From: Bradyrhizobium sp. 200 | GTDB taxonomy: Bacteria; Pseudomonadota; Alphaproteobacteria; Rhizobiales; Xanthobacteraceae | DNA: 64,000 bases | Direction of reading: 5' to 3' | Assembly: GCF_023100945.1 (NCBI RefSeq) | Contig: NZ_CP064689.1 | Span: 5,624,001 to 5,688,000, forward strand | Part shown: positions 1 through 23,469 of the stretch, piece after piece | Layout: the number at the start of each line of letters is the position of its first letter | How positions within the stretch are numbered: the first letter of the stretch is position 1 | Program-made: the position numbers and the translations under genes | Notes under the pieces: generated by a model | The model's database searches: none | What the model saw: only the letters and a program-made list of their open reading frames with translations | What the model was told of the DNA's origin: nothing

Positions 1-126
1 TCTCCCGCTTGCGGGGGAGGACGGATCGCATCGCGAGATGCGATCCGGGTGGGGGAAACTCTCTCCACACGGGCAGTGCGACTCGTGGAAGCACCCCCAC
101 CCCAACCCTCCCCCGCAAGCGGGAGA
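1..126. repeat. Palindromic element copy 1, inside dnaE2
   Basis: The outer arms (1-20 and 107-126) are perfect 20-nt inverted repeats. A nested hairpin has a perfect 10-bp stem (23-32 with 37-46) closed by GCGA. The element may extend left of the window. It lies inside the dnaE2 reading frame, which stays open through it and encodes residues ~868-908. A close copy lies in imuB at 4219-4342, in the same orientation and the same reading frame. Core length between matching arm positions is 124 bp in both. Confidence 0.9.
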
Positions 127-2726
127 GGGAGCACAGTCCCCGTGCGGCTGACCAAATCGGATTCTACCTTTAACGCGCCCCGGAACGACAACTGGCTCTG
201 CTTCAACCGCTCCTCGTCCTCATCAACCCAGCTAAACCCGTCGATCTGCCGAAAACCCAGCCGCACCGCGCAGTACTTGCCCTCGCCCTCCTCCAGCGTG
301 TTCTGCGCGAAGCTGTAGGACACGTCGATCTCGCGCACCTCGACGCCGTTCTTGCGGGCGTCGCCAACGATCTGCGCGGGCGCGTAAAAGCCCATCGGCT
401 GCGAGTTGAGGAGACCGCAGCAGAACGCATCGGGATGGTAATGCTTCAGCCATGACGAGATATAGACGAGCTGGGCGAAGCTCGCCGCGTGGCTTTCCGG
501 GAAACCGTAGGAACCAAAGCCCTTGATCTGGTCGAAACAGCTTCTGGCAAACTCCGGCGCGTAGCCGCGCGCGATCATGTTGCCGATCATCTTGTCTTCG
601 AACTTGCCGATGGTGCCGACGTTGCGAAACGTCGCCATCGCGCGGCGCAGGCCGTTGGCTTCCTCGGGTGTGAACTTTGCGGCCTCGATCGCGATCCGCA
701 TCGCCTGTTCCTGGAATAGCGGAACGCCGAGCGTCTTGTGCAGCACCTTGTAAAGCTCATCCGGTTCGCCGTGCTCAGGCGCCGGCGAGGGATAGCTCAC
801 CTGCTCGATCTTGTTTCGCCGGCGCAGATAGGGATGCACCATGTCCCCTTGGATCGGGCCCGGGCGCACGATCGCCACCTCGATCACGAGATCGTAGAAG
901 GTTCGCGGCTTCAGCCGCGGCAGCATGTTCATCTGTGCGCGGCTTTCGACCTGGAATACGCCGAGCGACTCGCCCCGCTGCAGCATTTGATAAACTTCGT
1001 CGTCGTCCTGCGATTTGATGTCAGCCAATTCGTATCGCTCGCCCTTGTGATCGGCGATGAGATCAAAACATTTGCGGATGCAGGTCAGCATGCCCAGCGC
1101 CAGCACGTCGACCTTCATCATATGAAGCGCGTCGACATCGTCCTTGTCCCATTCGATGAAGGTGCGGTCGTCCATCGCCGCGTTGCCGATCGGCACATAG
1201 GTGTCGAGCCGGTCCTGCGTCAGCACATAGCCGCCGACATGCTGCGACAGATGGCGCGGGAATTCGATCAGTTCGGTGGCGAGTTCGACCGCGAGCTCGA
1301 CCATCGCATTCTGTGGGTCGAGTCCGGCCTGGCGGACCTGCATCTCGTTGAGGCCCTTGCCCCAGCTTCCCCATACCGTATCGGCAAGCGCTGCGGTGAC
1401 ATCCTCGGTCAGCCCCAGCGCCTTGCCGACATCGCGGATCGCGCTGCGCGGACGATAATGGATAACGGTGGCGATGATCGCGGCGCGGTGGCGGCCGTAG
1501 CGGCGGTAGACATATTGCATCACCTCCTCGCGCCGCGAATGTTCGAAATCGACGTCGATGTCGGGCGGCTCCAGCCGCTCCTTGGAGATGAAGCGCTCGA
1601 ACAACAGATCGACCTTGGTCGGGTCGACTGAGGTGATGCCGAGCACGTAGCAGACGGCGGAATTGGCTGCCGAGCCCCGGCCCTGGCACAGGATGTTCTG
1701 GCTGCGCGCATAATGGACGATGTCGTGCACGGTCAGGAAATAATGCGCGTATTTCAGCTCGGCGATCAGCGCGAGTTCTTTGCGCAAGGTGGCACGCAGC
1801 TTGCCATCGATCTCGCCGCCGAAATATCTGTCGACGCCGGCCCAGGTCAGGTCTTCCAGATGCTGCTGCGCGGTCTTGCCTGGCGGCACCGGCTCGTCCG
1901 GATATTGGTATTTGAGCTGGTCGAGTGAAAATGAAATGCGCCCCGCAAAGTGCATGGTTTCCGCAATCGCCTCGGGCAGTTCGCGAAACAGCCGCGCCAT
2001 TTCATGGGGCGGTTTCAGGTAACGCTCGGCATTGGCCTCGAGCCGTCGGCCGATGGCCTCGATCGTGGTCTTCTCTCGGATACAGGTCAGCACGTCCTGT
2101 AGCCGGCGACGGGCGGGATGGTGGTACAGCACCTCATTAGTTGCCAGCAGCGAGACTTTTGCCGCGAGCGCCATATGATGCAGCCGCGCCAGCCGGCGTT
2201 TGTCGTCGCCTCGATAGAGCAGGCTTGCGGCGAGCCAGACACCATCGGCCCGGCTGTTCTTCAAACGCGCCAGAATTGTCTGTGCCTCCGCGGCATCGAA
2301 CCGGTGCGGCAGCGCCAGCACCAGAAGCTGGCCCTCGGCGAACTCCAAGAGGTCATCGAACCGCAGATGGCATTCGCCCTTCTCGATCCGCGTGATGTCG
2401 TCGCCGCGCTTGCCGCGGGTCAGCAACTGGCAGAGCCGGCCATAGGCGGTGCGGTCGCGTGGATAGACCAGGATATCAGGCGTGTCGTCGATAAAGACGA
2501 GGCGCGCGCCGATCAGGAGTTTTGGCTTGTGCTTGACCTCGGGATTGTCGAGTTCCTTGTAGGCGCGCACCACGCCGGCCAGCGTGTTGTGGTCGGCGAT
2601 CCCGATCGCGGGAATACCGAGTTCGCTCGCCTGATGCACATAGGCGCGCGGATCCGAGCCGCCGCGCAGGAACGAGAAATTGGTGGTGATGCCGATTTCG
2701 GCATAATCGCTGACAGGGCTTTTCAT
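1..2726 (-). CDS. dnaE2: Error-prone DNA polymerase DnaE2/ImuC, 3' end beyond window
   Basis: Catalytic alpha subunit of the SOS translesion 'mutasome', working with ImuA and ImuB. The frame opens at ATG 2726 and stays open to the left edge (908 codons seen; the family is usually around 1,050-1,170). Visible parts are an N-terminal PHP domain (NFSFLRGGSDP, residues ~13-23; IADHNTL), the C-family polymerase core with CQGRGSAANS and the palm aspartates in PDIDVDFEHSRREEV, and the FGSYGFPESHAASFA region near the thumb and fingers. The start overlaps the imuB stop (ATGA), so translation is probably coupled. From about residue 868 the frame runs into a palindromic repeat and reads as a glycine/proline-rich peptide (LPLAGEGWGGG), not family sequence. 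Whether normal DnaE2 sequence resumes lies outside the window. Identity is firm; functionality is not proven. Confidence 0.95.
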   Translation of the reverse strand, partial: MKSPVSDYAEIGITTNFSFLRGGSDPRAYVHQASELGIPAIGIADHNTLAGVVRAYKELDNPEVKHKPKLLIGARLVFIDDTPDILVYPRDRTAYGRLCQLLTRGKRGDDITRIEKGECHLRFDDLLEFAEGQLLVLALPHRFDAAEAQTILARLKNSRADGVWLAASLLYRGDDKRRLARLHHMALAAKVSLLATNEVLYHHPARRRLQDVLTCIREKTTIEAIGRRLEANAERYLKPPHEMARLFRELPEAIAETMHFAGRISFSLDQLKYQYPDEPVPPGKTAQQHLEDLTWAGVDRYFGGEIDGKLRATLRKELALIAELKYAHYFLTVHDIVHYARSQNILCQGRGSAANSAVCYVLGITSVDPTKVDLLFERFISKERLEPPDIDVDFEHSRREEVMQYVYRRYGRHRAAIIATVIHYRPRSAIRDVGKALGLTEDVTAALADTVWGSWGKGLNEMQVRQAGLDPQNAMVELAVELATELIEFPRHLSQHVGGYVLTQDRLDTYVPIGNAAMDDRTFIEWDKDDVDALHMMKVDVLALGMLTCIRKCFDLIADHKGERYELADIKSQDDDEVYQMLQRGESLGVFQVESRAQMNMLPRLKPRTFYDLVIEVAIVRPGPIQGDMVHPYLRRRNKIEQVSYPSPAPEHGEPDELYKVLHKTLGVPLFQEQAMRIAIEAAKFTPEEANGLRRAMATFRNVGTIGKFEDKMIGNMIARGYAPEFARSCFDQIKGFGSYGFPESHAASFAQLVYISSWLKHYHPDAFCCGLLNSQPMGFYAPAQIVGDARKNGVEVREIDVSYSFAQNTLEEGEGKYCAVRLGFRQIDGFSWVDEDEERLKQSQLSFRGALKVESDLVSRTGTVLPLPLAGEGWGGGASTSRTARVERVSPTRIASRDAIRPPPQAG

Positions 2727-4501
2727 GCGAACAACCCGTGCACGAACCATCTGACCGGCGCGGGTTCGTCTTCCGCGTCTCTCAGCTCGCTTTCATAGAG
2801 CCCGTCGCGAAAGATCCAGAAGCGCAAGCCTGCTTCATCCTCGATGCGGAAATAATCCCGCGTCGGGCCGTCGCCGTTTTGCTTCCACCATTCCATGGCG
2901 ATGCGTTCGGGCCCCTCCACCCGCACCACCGCATGCGTGACGCGCCGCCAGGTGAACTGATGCGGCGGGCCGTCGGGCACGGTTGCAAACGGCACCTTGA
3001 TGGGCTCCGGTCTGTCGAACAGCCGCAACGGCCGCAGCGGCGGCTCGCTTTCGATGCGCTCCGGCCATGCCGCCTGCGCGGCCGCCGCCAGATGATGCTG
3101 CGCTGCTACGGCCAGCACGGCGCGCTCGGGGATGTGGGTATCCTGCGGCAGATGCACGACCACGCGCTTTCCGCCGATGCGCGCGGCGATGCGGTCGATC
3201 AGCGCGGCCAGTTCGTCATTGTCATGGACGTTGGCGTCGAGGTCGCGCTGCTGCTGCACCACGATTTCGGTGCTGCTGGCGGACAAGCGAATGAGATCGA
3301 AGCCGAAGCCGGGATCGAGGGGATCGTTGAGCGCATCGAGCCGCTCGCGAAACAGGCGGTCGATCACCTCTGGCTTCGTCACCGGCCGGCCGGTATCGAC
3401 CGAAATCGTGCGCACCACGCCGTCGGTGCGGAAAAAACTTGCGTCCAGCCGCCGCGCGCCTTTGCCCTGTCTGTCCATCGCCGTGACCAGCATGGCGGCG
3501 AGCGCGGACAGGTTGATCGCGATCACGGTATCGGTGGCGACCGGTTCGGGAAAGCGTTTCTCGACGATGTAATCGGGCAGCGGCTTTCGGGGATTGATCG
3601 GCGCATCGCCCTGCCCCAGCGCCTGCTCCAGCAGCGTCGTGAAACCCGCGCCGAACCGCGCCGTGATTTCGTGGGCCGCGCGCGAGGCGACGTCGCCGAT
3701 GGTTTTCAGGCCAGCACGGCGCAGGCCGCTGGTGATGGCCTCACCGGCGCCGAGCGCGGATACCGGCAGTGGGGCGACGGCACAGGCCTCCTCGCCATCG
3801 GCAACAATCTTTCCGGAAGTCTGGCGCGTCAGCGTCCGGGCGCAGATCGCGGTGGAGGCGATCGCGGCGCTGACGGCAAAGCCGCGACGGCTCAGCGCGC
3901 CGCATACAATCTGCAGCAGTGCGCGCTCGCCGCCGAACAGATGGGCGCAGCCGGTGATGTCGAGATAGAGCCCATGCGGCAGATCGAGCGCCACCAAGGG
4001 GGTGAAGCGGTCGCACCAGTCGGCGATGTCGTCGAGCGTCTTGCGGTCGGCGACTTCGTCGGCGTCGAACACCGTCAGTTCGGGACAGATCGCGCGGGCA
4101 TTGGCGAGCGGCAGGCCGATCGAGAGGCCGGCGTGTACAGCCGTCTCGTCGAGCGAATGGATCAGGATGGCGTTGTGCTGCTTGGCAACGACGACGGTGG
4201 GCCAGGTTTGCGTCACCTCTCCCGCCTGCGGGGGAGGTCGGATCGCATCGAAAGATGCGATCCGGGTGGGGGGAACTCTCTCCACACGAACAGTGTGACT
4301 CGCGGCGGCCCCCCCACCCCAACCCTCCCCCGCAAGCGGGAGCGCACCGTTCGTGCCGTGAGCAGCGTCGCTCGAAACTGTTCTGGACTTTTCAGCTTGC
4401 GCGGCGTTGGCCTGCATAAGCCGCCGCTTGATGCGGTCGATGGGCAGGCGTGGCAGCCACAGGCTGAGGATACGCCGCCGGTTCGCTGAATAGGCACTCA
4501 T
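2723..4501 (-). CDS. imuB: ImuB, inactive Y-family polymerase homologue, with in-frame insert
   Basis: 592-residue ImuB, the hub of the ImuA-ImuB-DnaE2 complex, which resembles DinB polymerases but lacks the catalytic acidic residues. ATG 4501 was chosen because it begins MSAYSANRRRILSLWLPRLP, the typical ImuB N-terminus; the upstream extension belongs to imuA in another frame. Typical motifs are LYLDITGCAHLFGGE, a PLRPLRLFDRPEP segment near where the clamp-binding motif is expected, and the C-terminal WFVHGLFA. Residues 54-95 (LPLAGEGWGGG... to PPPQAGE) are encoded by a palindromic repeat and separate the first strand from the next conserved block (PTVVVAKQHNA). The gene overlaps imuA by 110 bp and dnaE2 by 4 bp. 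Regulation is expected through the LexA box at 5252-5266. Confidence 0.95.
   Translation of the reverse strand: MSAYSANRRRILSLWLPRLPIDRIKRRLMQANAAQAEKSRTVSSDAAHGTNGALPLAGEGWGGGAAASHTVRVERVPPTRIASFDAIRPPPQAGEVTQTWPTVVVAKQHNAILIHSLDETAVHAGLSIGLPLANARAICPELTVFDADEVADRKTLDDIADWCDRFTPLVALDLPHGLYLDITGCAHLFGGERALLQIVCGALSRRGFAVSAAIASTAICARTLTRQTSGKIVADGEEACAVAPLPVSALGAGEAITSGLRRAGLKTIGDVASRAAHEITARFGAGFTTLLEQALGQGDAPINPRKPLPDYIVEKRFPEPVATDTVIAINLSALAAMLVTAMDRQGKGARRLDASFFRTDGVVRTISVDTGRPVTKPEVIDRLFRERLDALNDPLDPGFGFDLIRLSASSTEIVVQQQRDLDANVHDNDELAALIDRIAARIGGKRVVVHLPQDTHIPERAVLAVAAQHHLAAAAQAAWPERIESEPPLRPLRLFDRPEPIKVPFATVPDGPPHQFTWRRVTHAVVRVEGPERIAMEWWKQNGDGPTRDYFRIEDEAGLRFWIFRDGLYESELRDAEDEPAPVRWFVHGLFA
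4219..4342. repeat. Palindromic element copy 2, inside imuB
   Basis: Outer arms 4219-4237 and 4324-4342 pair with one mismatch. A nested perfect 10-bp hairpin (4240-4249 with 4254-4263) has a GAAA loop. Same family, orientation and coding frame as the copy at 1-126. ImuB sequence flanks it on both sides, so it is an in-frame insertion of about 42 codons. Confidence 0.93.
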
Positions 4502-5186
4502 CACATTTCCATTCCATGATCCACCGGCCGACCGGGCCATGACGGTTACGAACGAGTTGCGTGTCGAAGACGGGCGCGCCCCACGCAGTCCAGGGTGACG
4601 CCGGCGTCGAATGCGCCGCGCGCACGATCCATCGGGTTTCCGCGGTCGAGGGCCGCGGTTCCGCCGCCATCCGCAGCAAAAGCGCGGTGACGCCGGAGGC
4701 CTGCGCCGCCAAAGTGAGCTTGCGGCTGGCGACGAGATCGAGCTGGCGCGCCTGCCCCCAGACTTCCAGCACGACGGCGCCGAGCGCATCGCAGGCCAGC
4801 GCGTCGGCGGCGGTGCGCAACGCGGCATCGATATCGGGCGCGCGCACGGTCACGAGCAGCCGCGGATCGAGGCCGAGCTCGCAAAGCCCGCTCATCGACA
4901 GCGCGCCCGATTCAATTTCCGAAAAATCCTGCCGCACCCAGACCAGCGGCCGGCGCGGCGACACCCTTCCGGCGAGCCCCGCGATGAAGCCGGTTGCCGC
5001 CGCGCTCTGGTGGCCCTCGGCGAACACTTCATGCACCGCCGCGACCGCAAGGCCGCCGTGCAGCACAGAATCCGCTGCCGCATGGCCGAGCGCGACCTTG
5101 TTGAGGCCATGCGCATCGCAGGGCGCTTCGATCCGCTCGATGCTCCCGCGCAAAGTTGCAAGCGTGCTGGTGCGTGCGGTGCTCAT
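4392..5186 (-). CDS. imuA: ImuA, SOS mutagenesis cofactor (RecA-like)
   Basis: 264-residue protein, first gene of the imuA-imuB-dnaE2 operon. ImuA proteins are RecA-related and help ImuB and DnaE2 in damage-induced mutagenesis. Recognised by its position, by the N-terminal blocks VALGHAAADSVLHGGLA and VHEVFAEGHQSAAATGF, and by the RecA-like PLVWVRQDFSEIESGALSM stretch; the C-terminal RWIMEWKCDE segment also fits the family. No intact Walker A motif was seen. The ATG at 5186 is preceded by a TGAGGAGCGGGGC ribosome site. The 3' end overlaps imuB by 110 bp in a different frame, a long overlap that implies coupling. A LexA box lies 66-80 bp upstream. Confidence 0.88.
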   Translation of the reverse strand: MSTARTSTLATLRGSIERIEAPCDAHGLNKVALGHAAADSVLHGGLAVAAVHEVFAEGHQSAAATGFIAGLAGRVSPRRPLVWVRQDFSEIESGALSMSGLCELGLDPRLLVTVRAPDIDAALRTAADALACDALGAVVLEVWGQARQLDLVASRKLTLAAQASGVTALLLRMAAEPRPSTAETRWIVRAAHSTPASPWTAWGAPVFDTQLVRNRHGPVGRWIMEWKCDECLFSEPAAYPQPVAATPAHRPHQAAAYAGQRRAS

Positions 5187-5251: not shown

Positions 5252-5266
5252 GTTCATGATACGTTC
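5252..5266. promoter_or_regulatory. LexA (SOS) box, GTTC-N7-GTTC
   Basis: GTTC at 5252-5255 and GTTC at 5263-5266 are separated by seven bases, a perfect match to the alphaproteobacterial LexA operator. It lies 66 bp upstream of the imuA ATG on the minus strand and 83 bp upstream of the rSAM relic on the plus strand, with a TAATAT sequence abutting it at 5267. It probably controls imuA-imuB-dnaE2 and could also act on the divergent udgX side. Confidence 0.88.
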
Positions 5267-15178: not shown

Positions 15179-16351
15179 TCACGCCGCCGCCAGCTTGTTC
15201 TCGACCAGCTTGATCCAGTACGAGGTGCCGTACACGATCGCCTCGTCGTTGAAATCATAGGCGGGATGGTGGAGTCCTGCGCTGTCGCCGTTGCCGCAGA
15301 AGATAAAGGCGCCCGGCCGCGCTTCCAGCATGTAGGAAAAATCTTCTGCGCCCATCAGCGGCGGCATCTCGTGGACGTTCTGGGCGCCCGCGACGTCCCT
15401 GGCCACCTGCGTGGCGAACTCGGTCTGCTCGGCGTGGTTCCTGGTCACGGGATAGCCGCGCTCATAAACCAGATCGACTTTGGCGCCGGTCATTTTGGCC
15501 ACGCCCTCGCACACCTCGCGGACCCGCTTCTCCACCGTTTCGCGCACCTCCGGCGTCAGCGTCCGCACGGTGCCCCGGAGTTCGGCGGTCTGCGGGATCA
15601 CGTTGCGGGCGTTACCGGCATGGAACTCGCAGATCGAGATCACCGCGGAGTCCAGGGGATCGATGGTCCTTGAGACGATCGACTGTAGCGCTGTGATCAA
15701 CTGCGAGCCGACGAGCACGGAATCGATGCATTTGTTCGGGCGCGCGGCGTGGCCGCCGAGCCCTTCGATCTTGATGTCGATCGAGTCGGTCGCGGCCATG
15801 ACCGGACCGGGGCGGATGGCAAACGAGCCGACCGGAATCCCCGGGCCATTGTGCATGCCGTAGACCTGCTCGATGCCGAACCGCTCCATCAGCCCGTCCT
15901 TGATCATGGCGGCGGCGCCCGCACCGCCCTCCTCGGCCGGCTGGAAGATCACGACTGCGTCGCCGGCGAAATTCCGTGTCTCGGCGAGATACCGCGCTGC
16001 ACCCAAAAGCATCGCCGTGTGTCCGTCATGGCCGCAGGCATGCATCAGGCCCGGAGTCTTGGAAGCATGGGGCAGGTTGGTCGTCTCCTCGATCGGCAGC
16101 GCGTCCATGTCGGCGCGAAGCCCGATCACCCCGATCTCGCCCTTGCCGGGCTGCTTGCCCTTGATGACGCCGACGACACCGGTCTTGCCGAGGCCGGTGG
16201 CGACCTCATCGCAGCCGAATTCGCGCAAGCGGTCTGCGACGAATGCTGCAGTGCGGTGGACTTCGTACAGCAATTCGGGATTTTCATGGATATCGCGGCG
16301 CCAGGCCTGGATATCGGGTTGCAGATCGGCGACGCGGTTGACGATAGGCAT
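15179..16351 (-). CDS. M20 family amidohydrolase (hippurate hydrolase type), copy 1
   Basis: 390-residue metal-dependent amidohydrolase of the M20D group, which cleaves N-acyl amino acids such as hippurate or indole-acetyl conjugates. The metal-binding ACGHDGHTAMLLGAA motif, the FQPAEEGGAGA catalytic-glutamate block, and the C-terminal GAEDFSYMLE motif are present, as is the exchange-domain GLGGHAARPN stretch. Cytoplasmic: no signal peptide. It has the same length as, and very high similarity to, the gene immediately upstream (16495-17667), and the DNA before both starts is also alike, so the pair is a tandem duplication. Substrate differences between the copies cannot be told from sequence. 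Confidence 0.93.
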   Translation of the reverse strand: MPIVNRVADLQPDIQAWRRDIHENPELLYEVHRTAAFVADRLREFGCDEVATGLGKTGVVGVIKGKQPGKGEIGVIGLRADMDALPIEETTNLPHASKTPGLMHACGHDGHTAMLLGAARYLAETRNFAGDAVVIFQPAEEGGAGAAAMIKDGLMERFGIEQVYGMHNGPGIPVGSFAIRPGPVMAATDSIDIKIEGLGGHAARPNKCIDSVLVGSQLITALQSIVSRTIDPLDSAVISICEFHAGNARNVIPQTAELRGTVRTLTPEVRETVEKRVREVCEGVAKMTGAKVDLVYERGYPVTRNHAEQTEFATQVARDVAGAQNVHEMPPLMGAEDFSYMLEARPGAFIFCGNGDSAGLHHPAYDFNDEAIVYGTSYWIKLVENKLAAA

Positions 16352-16494
16352 GGGAATTCTCTGGCCTCAAAGGTTGGAACGCTAGTGCTTCTGTAGCATG
16401 CAAGCGGCGGTCCACCCAGCACGCTGCCGCAGAGCCCCCATCCACCCGGGAGGCCGACCGGCGGGGCTGGAAAACCCGGTGCCCCTTGGCGGCC

Positions 16495-17667
16495 TTACGC
16501 GGCCAGCGTGTTCTCGACCAGCTTGATCCAGTAGGAGGTGCCGAACACGATCGCCTCGTCGTTGAAATTGTAGGCGGGGTGATGGAGCCCTGCGCTGTCG
16601 CCATTGCCGCAGAAGATCAGCGCACCCGGCCGCTGCTCCAGCATGAAGGCGAAATCTTCGCCAGCCATCAGCGGCGGCATCACATGCACATTGGCATCGC
16701 CGGCGATGTCCCTGGCTGCCCGCGTTGCGACATCGGTCTGCCTGATATGGTTGACCGTTACCGGATAGCCGCGATCGTATCTCAGATCGATCGTGGCGCC
16801 GGTGGCCTGCGCCATCCCGGCGACGACCTCGCGTACCCGCCTTTCCACCATTTTCCGTACTTCGCCGTTCAGGGTACGGACAGTGCCCGTCAGTTCAGCG
16901 GTTTGCGGGATCACGTTGCGGGCGTGGCCGGCGTGAAATTCGCACATCGAAATCACAGCCGATTCCAGCGGATCGACGCTGCGCGACACGATCGACTGCA
17001 GCGCCGTGATCAACTGCGCGCCGACCAGGACGGAATCGATGCATTGGTTCGGATGCGCGGCGTGCCCACCCCGCCCCTCGATCTTGATGACGACGGCATC
17101 GCCTCCGGCCATGATCGGACCGGGCCGAAGCGCGAATGCGCCGACCGGAATTCCCGGACCGTTATGCATGCCGTAGACCTGCTCGATACCGAAACGGTCC
17201 ATCAGCCCGTCCTTGATCATCGCAACCGCGCCCGCGCCGCCCTCCTCGGCCGGCTGAAAGATCACGACCGCATCGCCGGCGAAATTGCGGGTCTCGGCGA
17301 GATAGCGCGCCGCGCCCAGCAGCATGGCGGTGTGTCCGTCATGGCCGCAGGCGTGCATCAAGCCCCTTGTTTTGGAAGCGTAAGGCAGATTGGTCGCCTC
17401 CTCGATCGGCAGCGCGTCCATATCCGCCCGCAGCCCGATGACCTTCACGTCGCCGTTGCCGGCCGGCCTGTTGCCCTTGATGACGCCGACGACGCCGGTG
17501 CGGCCAAGACCGGTAATGACCTCGTCGCAGCCGAATTCCCGCAAACGGTCCGCCACCAATGCCGCCGTGCGGTGCACGTCGTAGAGCAGTTCCGGATGTT
17601 CATGAATATCCCGGCGCCAGGCCTGGATGTCGGGTTGAAACTCGGCGACGCGGTTGACGATGGGCAT
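16495..17667 (-). CDS. M20 family amidohydrolase (hippurate hydrolase type), copy 2
   Basis: 390 residues from ATG 17667, chosen because it gives the same MPIVNRVAEFQPDIQAWRR start as copy 1; the open frame extends 29 codons further up but into the duplicated non-coding segment. Metal and catalytic motifs are intact (ACGHDGHTAMLLGAA, FQPAEEGGAGAVAM, AGEDFAFMLE). It lies 143 bp upstream of copy 1 on the same strand. An ordinary cytoplasmic peptidase-fold amidohydrolase; substrate unknown, with N-acyl amino acids the likely class. Confidence 0.93.
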   Translation of the reverse strand: MPIVNRVAEFQPDIQAWRRDIHEHPELLYDVHRTAALVADRLREFGCDEVITGLGRTGVVGVIKGNRPAGNGDVKVIGLRADMDALPIEEATNLPYASKTRGLMHACGHDGHTAMLLGAARYLAETRNFAGDAVVIFQPAEEGGAGAVAMIKDGLMDRFGIEQVYGMHNGPGIPVGAFALRPGPIMAGGDAVVIKIEGRGGHAAHPNQCIDSVLVGAQLITALQSIVSRSVDPLESAVISMCEFHAGHARNVIPQTAELTGTVRTLNGEVRKMVERRVREVVAGMAQATGATIDLRYDRGYPVTVNHIRQTDVATRAARDIAGDANVHVMPPLMAGEDFAFMLEQRPGALIFCGNGDSAGLHHPAYNFNDEAIVFGTSYWIKLVENTLAA

Positions 17668-17761
17668 GGAGATGACACTTCCGGGGTTGACCAGTTCTGC
17701 CCCTGTAGCATGCAAAGGGCGGTCCACCCAACGCACCCCGCCGCAGGGGCCCATTCACGGC

Positions 17762-22212: not shown

Positions 22213-23469
22213 ATGGCAGCGCGTGGATCAGGTGGACTGCTCCTTTGCGTGGCTCTGCTGCTTGCGATGCCGGCGCTGGCCGCCACGCCGGCCGACCGGG
22301 CCGAGTGCGCCGCCAGCGCCGACAAGGCTGACGTTGGGGGCGCGGCCTGCAGCCGCATCATCGACGATGCAAGCGAGCAGGTGGCAGAACGCGTCAAGGC
22401 CTTCACGAACCGGGGCCGCGGCTCCTTCAATAGGAAGGATTACGACCGCGCGATTGCCGACTACGGCGAGGCCATCAAGCTCAGCCCGAGGGACGCCTCC
22501 GCCCTTGCCCACCGGTGCGAGGCATACGAGAGCAAGGAGGACCACGTCGCCGCCATTGCCGATTGCACCGAGGCGATCAAGATCGATCCGGAATATGGCC
22601 GGGCCTACAACAACCGTGGCGTCGCCTACTACGGTCTGCATGAATACGACGCTGCGCTGGCCGACCACGCCGAGGCGATCAGGGTCGATTCCAGGGACGT
22701 GTGGGCCTATGCCCGCCGCGGCATGGCGTGGACGGAAAAGGGTGAATTTGACCGGGCTATCGCCGATACCACCGAGGCGGTTACGATCGATCCGAAATAC
22801 GCCTTTGGTTTTGGCCAACGGGGTCAGGCGCTCTTCAGAAAGAGGTTGATCACGAAAAAAGACGGATGGGAGCCCGCGATCGCAGACTACAGCGAGGCGA
22901 TCAAGCTCGATCCAAATCTGGTGTGGCTGTACAGCTCGCGTGGTGTTGCCTACAGCAACAATCGCCAATACGACCTCGCCGTTCCGGATTGCAGCGAGGT
23001 CATCAAGCGCGAACCCAAAAATTCCGGCGGGTATAATTGCCTCGGCGTCGCTTACGAAGGCTTGAAGGACTATCGCCGCGCGATCGCCGCCTATGATCAG
23101 TCGATCAGCATAAATCCAAGGAATGGCGTGGCGTATTGGAATCGCGGCAATGCCAATGCGGCGCTGCGCAAGATCGATGACGCGATCGCCGACTATGACC
23201 GGGCGATCGCGATCAATCCCAAGGACTTCAACGCTTTCAACTCGCGCGGCAAAGCCTGGGTCGCAAAGGGTGACAGCAACCAGGCGATTGCAGATTTCAC
23301 GCAAGCGATCCAGTTCGGTCCGTCCTATGTCGAAGCCTACAACAACCGCGGCCTCTCCAATGAAGTGCTGGGCCGCCGCACTGATGCGATCGCCGATTTC
23401 CGTAAGGCGCAATCGATCGACCCGGCCGACCGGGTCAGCAAGCAACAGCTCCGCGTGCTCGGTTTCTGA
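22213..23469 (+). CDS. Exported tetratricopeptide-repeat protein
   Basis: 418 residues from ATG 22213 (GAGGGGAAACAGC upstream). A clear signal peptide (GGLLLCVALLLAMPALA, cleavage near AAT) is followed by at least ten TPR units from residue ~60 to the end, most of the form ...A-x-x-NRG-x-A-x-x...Y-x-x-AI-A-DY-x-x-AI-x-x-x-P. Repeats are regular, with one 10-residue expansion around RKRLITKKDGWEPA. TPR superhelices bind protein partners; this one would act in the periplasm. No enzymatic domain is present and no partner is suggested by the neighbours. Confidence 0.85.
   Translation: MAARGSGGLLLCVALLLAMPALAATPADRAECAASADKADVGGAACSRIIDDASEQVAERVKAFTNRGRGSFNRKDYDRAIADYGEAIKLSPRDASALAHRCEAYESKEDHVAAIADCTEAIKIDPEYGRAYNNRGVAYYGLHEYDAALADHAEAIRVDSRDVWAYARRGMAWTEKGEFDRAIADTTEAVTIDPKYAFGFGQRGQALFRKRLITKKDGWEPAIADYSEAIKLDPNLVWLYSSRGVAYSNNRQYDLAVPDCSEVIKREPKNSGGYNCLGVAYEGLKDYRRAIAAYDQSISINPRNGVAYWNRGNANAALRKIDDAIADYDRAIAINPKDFNAFNSRGKAWVAKGDSNQAIADFTQAIQFGPSYVEAYNNRGLSNEVLGRRTDAIADFRKAQSIDPADRVSKQQLRVLGF

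Follow-up and report, generated by a model that had tools for sequence, protein, structure and literature searches.

Palindromic repeats of one family, here called family A, are inserted in frame in two neighbouring SOS genes of Bradyrhizobium sp. 200, dnaE2 and imuB, and in relatives of this strain the same two protein linkers are either empty or occupied, in part by repeats of other families (at least five in all, A included). Different families recur at both hot spots, a recurrence that the earlier note on this DNA had not foreseen. We consider it most probable, at roughly 0.7, that these sites are near-neutral sinks for insertions, situated in linkers of repair proteins that are used conditionally, and that a filter on reading frame acts on what they take up.

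The window, i.e. the whole stretch of 64,000 nucleotides that was analysed, contains part of dnaE2 followed by imuB and imuA, all on the minus strand (Table 1). An alternative start codon of dnaE2, an ATG near position 2726, is possible. When the window was searched with the repeat queries, the two family-A copies were the only ones found, together with pieces of 16-23 nt elsewhere. Two further repetitive regions of the window are of a different kind: at positions 22434-23358 a 102-bp unit (34 residues) is repeated seven to nine times, probably encoding a TPR-type repeat protein, and positions 15185-17669 hold blocks 1.3 kb apart with 80-85% identity, likely tandem paralogous genes.

Table 1. 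Coordinates of the family-A copies and of the mutasome operon in the window.
Feature	Position	Strand	Remarks
Family-A palindromic element in dnaE2	1..126	-	last bases GGTGA (gene sense) just left of the window; loose gene-5' tail at ~127-150
Family-A palindromic element in imuB	4218..4342	-	from sequence comparison and fold
dnaE2, error-prone DNA polymerase, in-window part	1..2750	-	whole open frame L031:7178-10750, 1190 aa
imuB, Y-family-like mutasome subunit, 592 aa	2723..4501	-	insert at ~residues 53-95
imuA, first gene of the operon, without insert	4392..5186	-	best match NF033429, 35 bits, under the cut-off of 150
LexA/SOS-box-like site GAAC-N7-GAAC	5252..5266	-	~65 bp upstream of imuA

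The earlier note had claimed that one palindromic element lies in both genes, in the same orientation and the same reading frame. This is borne out: the copies (1-125 and 4218-4342) share their orientation and are 90% identical, and in the minus-strand frame both yield the peptide LPLAGEGWGGG...PTRIAS.DAIRPPPQAGE. ImuB sequence picks up again after the element, as had been noticed, with the IMS domain at residues 101-225. For dnaE2 a single flank had been visible, and extension to the left had been suggested as a check; in the extended locus (L031) the same frame stays open through the element up to a stop at L031:7178, and residues 14-1190 of the product match NCBIfam NF004225 with 1567 bits. 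The window copies are therefore true in-frame insertions within whole genes. According to alignments to solved relatives, the ImuB insert precedes a stretch matching Pol IV from Pol IV residue 43, and the DnaE2 insert lies between two stretches matched to Pol III alpha (query residues 18-811 and 985-1114), just before the HhH motif (918-970).

The motif GAAC-N7-GAAC upstream of imuA is one that we take to be the alphaproteobacterial LexA box. Taken alone it is weak evidence, since the window holds two matches against 1.78 expected. Within the genus, 56 of 58 loci have the motif upstream, and the remaining two (L083, L116) are cut by contig ends.

The core of the family-A element measures ~125 bp. 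Among 62 full intergenic copies, drawn from 78 non-mutasome family-A loci of which the remainder are less than full length, conservation reaches ~22 bp further on the gene-5' side and ~7 bp on the other side, so that the length of 124 bp given before has to be supplemented by looser tails, the second of them GGTGAAG. The usual ends are CTCCCT and AGGTGA. Terminal inverted repeats, by which MITEs are recognized, are present, with 20-bp perfect arms in the dnaE2 copy. As RNA, the window copies fold with -95.7 and -94.9 kcal/mol (z -8.8 and -10.5; 200 shuffles each). RNAalifold gave a poor consensus on the family-A copies and pairing was therefore scored on the fold of the consensus sequence: in 64 of 84 copies (those of at least 112 nt, the 20 shorter ones excluded), 95.2% of cells are paired and 56 compensatory cells are distributed over 12 of 47 pairs. 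When the partner is shifted by 1-3 columns, pairing drops to 43-55% and compensatory cells to 8-18.

Family A is dispersed. The imuB copy matches 33 places at E<=1e-3 in its own genome (9.49 Mb), and a match at E<=1e-15 is found in 40 of 60 genomes of the genus, own genome included. A known RNA family was ruled out, as no Rfam match reached its cut-off in seven loci (the best E-value, for whalefall-1, came with 25.8 bits against a cut-off of 37). In a tree of the copies, which has 84 rows, few columns and 55 of 81 inner branches open, gene conversion and fresh insertion are not separable. The element is best explained as a REP/MITE-like repeat of Bradyrhizobium that is dispersed, forms a hairpin and is non-autonomous.

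Comparison of imuB-dnaE2 loci from 57 relatives with our own (58 in total) revealed how variable the two linkers are. A repeat is present in 25 of 57 decidable ImuB linkers and in 46 of 56 decidable DnaE2 linkers. Fifty-four ImuB linkers were read by machine; all 24 longer than 72 nt match a repeat at E<=1e-4, and 29 of the 30 short ones match none, the last matching family E. The four unread ImuB linkers comprise an in-frame tandem of B and A, a contig-cut one carrying A and two short ones. DnaE2 linkers were readable in 56 loci, two being cut by contig ends: 46 of 49 longer than 60 nt have a match, and none of the seven short ones has. For both proteins together, 36 of 37 short linkers are without repeat match. 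The repeat queries came from seven of the 58 loci, so these counts and those for the ligase below include self-matches (3 imuB, 3 dnaE2, 1 ligase). Machine reading required both anchors in one frame; among the unread loci none was out of frame.

Assigned by eye, the ImuB linkers carry A (9), B (8), A with B (2), A with D (1) or E (6), and 32 are empty; the DnaE2 linkers carry A (5), C with A (1), B (7), C (31), D (2) or other inserts (3), and 7 are empty. A and B have parts of their arms in common; C, D and E show no cross-match to A or B, nor among themselves. Like A, the other families are dispersed, with at least 45 matches of B in G010, 72 of C in G059, 36 of D in G037 and 40 of E in the genome of strain 200 (G000), where at most 40 candidates per genome were scored in each search, a place of C may count on both strands and many D matches are only a 40-bp part. 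On a FastTree tree of 57 rows built without the linkers (13 of 54 inner branches weak), these states, as read by eye, need at least 19 changes in imuB and 20 in dnaE2. Outside the genus but in the same family, 13 of 28 loci were readable and two of them (L296, L318) have, by eye, repeat-like inserts in the ImuB linker. A conserved ImuB or DnaE2 domain, which the earlier note had named among the findings that would speak against insertion, is ruled out: orthologues lack the peptide or carry others in its place. In one ImuB (L118, genome G043) the match is in two pieces, with a break at about residues 290-298 of the post-insert part, possibly a frameshift, an insertion or an assembly error.

Control proteins carry no such inserts. 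The replicative paralogue DnaE1 gave 56 full-length matches in 60 genomes (four more were cut short), all of 3432-3513 bp and none with an insert of about repeat size, a spread wide enough to conceal an insert of some tens of bases. ImuA, from the operon itself, has an alignment gap longer than 20 aa in none of 57 loci, one locus being read as two pieces around a gap.

The inserts themselves are loosely constrained. Their dN/dS in eight groups, two of which overlap, is 0.53, 0.49, 0.71, 0.71, 0.47, 0.27 (a pair), 0.82 and 0.54, values that take in native linker residues. Flanks are constrained: dN/dS is 0.04-0.12 for DnaE2 and 0.05-0.21 for the right flanks of imuB, whose left flank overlaps imuA and makes an unfair comparison. 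Since empty ImuB linkers give 0.57 (29 rows), the linker is itself loose. With frames open and flanks constrained, broken genes are ruled out. In the three rows with A in dnaE2, the insert shows less synonymous divergence (0.18) than its flanks (0.48 and 0.37), which fits fresh insertion, conversion or palindrome constraint alike.

What had been suspected about a bias of frame and orientation stands in part. In all imuB and dnaE2 loci read, family A occupies one frame. Genic A copies fall in a single length class (2, modulo 3) in 11 of 11 measured cases and in 8 of 8 with clean ends, counts uncorrected for kinship, with three of the 11 ends obtained by extrapolation and one further row yielding no length. 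Lengths of the 62 intergenic copies fall in classes 0, 1 and 2 in 18, 16 and 28 cases, and in each of the six frames about equally many of these copies (41-53) are stop-free, compared with ~40% in mononucleotide shuffles. The repeat is therefore readable in any frame, and genes have kept one length class. A general frame preference is not supported, as the ligase copy of strain 200 is read in another frame and intergenic copies are stop-free in all six.

Next, we examined where copies reside. Classification was heuristic: open frames and a score of codon usage, with mutasome loci as the training set, were applied first, and the copies were then read. In its strict form the score-based step overlooked the imuB copies, as their left flank is short. 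Of the 33 places in the genome of strain 200, 30 were examined, and in-gene A-like copies were found in imuB, dnaE2, a cisplatin-damage-response DNA ligase (L021, L029) and mutS (L027, a short A-like palindrome). All these hosts are repair genes; two had been named before, and the majority of copies are intergenic. One place (L026) is borderline, with a coding-like score on one side and no Pfam match, and in ten more doubtful open frames no protein family flanks the element on both sides. For all five families in twelve genomes, 12 of 187 distinct places, some of which may be neighbouring halves of one element, were judged genic (5 imuB, 5 dnaE2, 1 ligase, 1 helicase) and 175 were not. The mutasome cases are partly ascertained, because the queries for B-E came from mutasome copies and the genomes were chosen for carrying them; the ligase and helicase cases are not ascertained.

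The other hosts behave similarly. The ligase (TIGR04120) of strain 200 has an in-frame A-related palindrome at G000:C1:8707551-8707680 (L021, L342). Among the 30 best-matching loci out of 59 genomes with a match, a sample that leans to inserted genes because the query itself carried the insert, 28 are readable; 25 have a long linker, 23 of these with a repeat match, and three a short one. The ligase-associated DEXH helicase (TIGR04121) has in-frame palindromic inserts at one linker in L183, L452 (G010) and L378 (a Rhodopseudomonas MAG), and in a sample likewise leaning to inserted genes 28 of 30 loci are readable, 18 with a long linker (13 with a match) and 10 with a short one. The palindromic piece in MutS of strain 200 (G000:C1:355019-355059; L027, L409) lies just ahead of the TGPNMAGKS motif; 28 of 30 loci are readable, 33 extra nucleotides are present in three (G000, G051, G053; two with a match) and 25 are uniform. 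Long linkers matching no query repeat number three in dnaE2, two in the ligase, five in the helicase and one in mutS.

Peptide searches against 5.8 billion proteins, each with one frame and one length range, returned ImuB and DnaE2 almost exclusively. The ImuB insert peptide, used alone against proteins of 0.55-1.75 times the length of ImuB, gave 62 matches from 83 candidates, 59 of which Pfam assigns to DnaE2 or ImuB; with the C peptide there were 22 from 29, all DnaE2, and with the B peptide 13 from 71, 12 of them ImuB. Pooled, this makes 93 of 97. The other four (P0051, P0055, P0059, P0094), read individually, give no clear case of a repeat placed within a different gene: in two the peptide seems to belong to an extension upstream of a signal peptide, in one to a tail after a frameshift, and the last resembles a fusion with a piece of ImuB.

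A scan of GTDB with the 48-aa dnaE2 insert peptide gave at least 27 loci; among the matches listed, seven are genic and 20 were not judged genic. The genic ones are dnaE2 (L352), imuB (L353, L356), the TIGR04121 helicase of the Rhodopseudomonas MAG (1125 bits) and three in-frame palindromic inserts: in thiC of a Proteobacteria MAG (L359, 999 bits), in hisH of a Gallionella MAG (L371, 203 bits) and near the N-terminus of glnE of a Nitrosomonadales MAG (L370, 464 bits). Repair hosts thus make up four of the seven matches listed, three of these being the ascertained imuB/dnaE2 pair, and beyond the Bradyrhizobium/Rhodopseudomonas group the three hosts among the matches listed include no repair gene. 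The link to repair genes is strong within the genus and, among the matches listed, not general in the GTDB scan.

Repeats inside repair genes, DnaE2 included, have been known since 2013. According to the available parts of the paper by Di Nocera, De Gregorio and Rocco (PMC3733652), REPs occur in genes of DNA synthesis and repair, among them DnaE2, uvrA, recBCD and a DNA ligase; GTAG/CGTC REPs are otherwise mostly intergenic, and REP families occur in Bradyrhizobium. The one case reported there at about the same site is recB in two Xanthomonas, other sites being different, and the main text makes no mention of ImuB. Our literature searches, which covered few subscription journals, returned no record of ImuB as a host, of such same-site turnover or of family A. 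The GTAG/CGTC unit is 20-40 bp long and tagged with GTAG or CGTC, whereas family A is ~125 bp long and untagged. One end of family C carries CGTCATTCC, as a CGTC REP might, so that C may fit where A does not. Br-REP1 and Br-REP2 (PMC5082802, as far as available) are likewise dispersed palindromes of Bradyrhizobium, and stretches similar to theirs, CCGGAATC and CCCCGGAATGA, occur in family C; they are, however, reported in 3'-UTRs and intergenic regions and their sequence is unlike that of family A.

The likeness to Rickettsia palindromic elements (RPE) drawn in the earlier note holds at the level of layout. RPE are described, in the portions available to us (PMC2229807, PMC10969869), as dispersed palindromes of ~100-150 bp in several families, both intergenic and in frame within conserved protein genes. 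Family A is also a dispersed palindrome, of ~125 bp and with a strong hairpin, whose in-frame insertion in conserved genes is tolerated, the protein continuing on both sides. Compared with these accounts of RPE, our case concerns a GC-rich soil genus with large genomes, nearly all examined copies are intergenic, repair proteins are the hosts found within the genus, and different families have come to refill one and the same linker.

We propose that the element, possibly mobilised in trans by some transposase, would ordinarily persist between genes. One linker each in ImuB, DnaE2 and a few other DNA-damage-response proteins would tolerate insertion, because there is room for ~20-100 extra residues and the repeats are mostly stop-free in all frames. 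Insertions that shift the frame or bring in a stop would be purged, since the host protein is under purifying selection, and the survivors would therefore be in frame. With time, repeats of different families would be added, removed, stacked and exchanged at these sites, through insertion and deletion and probably also through allele exchange between strains. Tolerance would then be the cause of the hot spots, and selection may be weaker on rarely expressed SOS genes. Some points weigh against such sinks: many non-essential proteins have linkers, so that it is not obvious how tolerance by itself would account for repair genes being the hosts found in the genus; other taxa have hosts unrelated to repair, namely thiC, hisH and glnE; and some long linkers match no query repeat.

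The association with repair genes could instead reflect second-order selection, in which inserts impair or modify proteins of repair and mutagenesis, increase the rate of mutation or recombination and hitch-hike with the beneficial changes produced. Repair genes should then be over-represented among fixed in-gene insertions, an idea that follows the mutator effects suggested for repair-gene REPs in the available text of PMC3733652. The hosts found in the genus (imuB, dnaE2, TIGR04120 ligase, TIGR04121 helicase, mutS) conform to it, as does the like pattern which that text reports, with the same speculation, for other species. Nevertheless we regard it as unlikely: the flanks of the DnaE2 insert are under strong purifying selection, some site has remained filled in a large part of the genus, which a transient mutator allele would not do, in MutS only a small insert is present and only in 3 of 28 readable loci, and hosts in other taxa lie outside repair.

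Still less credible is a regulatory hairpin, by which copies in the imuA-imuB-dnaE2 mRNA would slow ribosomes or recruit RNases and so tune the amount of mutasome; families would interchange because any strong palindrome suffices. Genic copies do fold as well as intergenic ones (-0.695 kcal/mol per nt in 11 copies versus -0.731 in 73; 94.4% of cells paired in 8 versus 95.3% in 56), and the operon has its conserved SOS-box-like site. However, the insert is absent from 32 of 57 ImuB and 7 of 56 DnaE2 linkers, family E folds weakly (z -2.4) and truncated A copies persist in imuB. That the mobilising enzyme or a repair-linked process favours these loci, the hot spot residing in the insertion step and not in selection, is most improbable: different families do recur at one site and the ligase and its helicase also carry sites, but families that differ in their ends would have to share one mode of targeting, and the majority of copies lie elsewhere.

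Peptides like LPLAGEGWGGG in Bradyrhizobium proteins are to be read as repeat DNA and not as domains. It would be a bold and rather doubtful extension that damage-response genes are the preferred long-lived homes of such repeats, their movement or retention being coupled to the damage response, and that the inserts act as a heritable, quickly switching evolvability dial in Bradyrhizobium and beyond. The genus nevertheless offers a natural experiment, with dozens of related species in which the linkers of two SOS polymerases are empty or variously filled, and in frame wherever readable. It makes the suggestion of 2013, that repeats in repair genes tune the mutation rate, testable against neutral sinks in the linkers of rarely used repair proteins.
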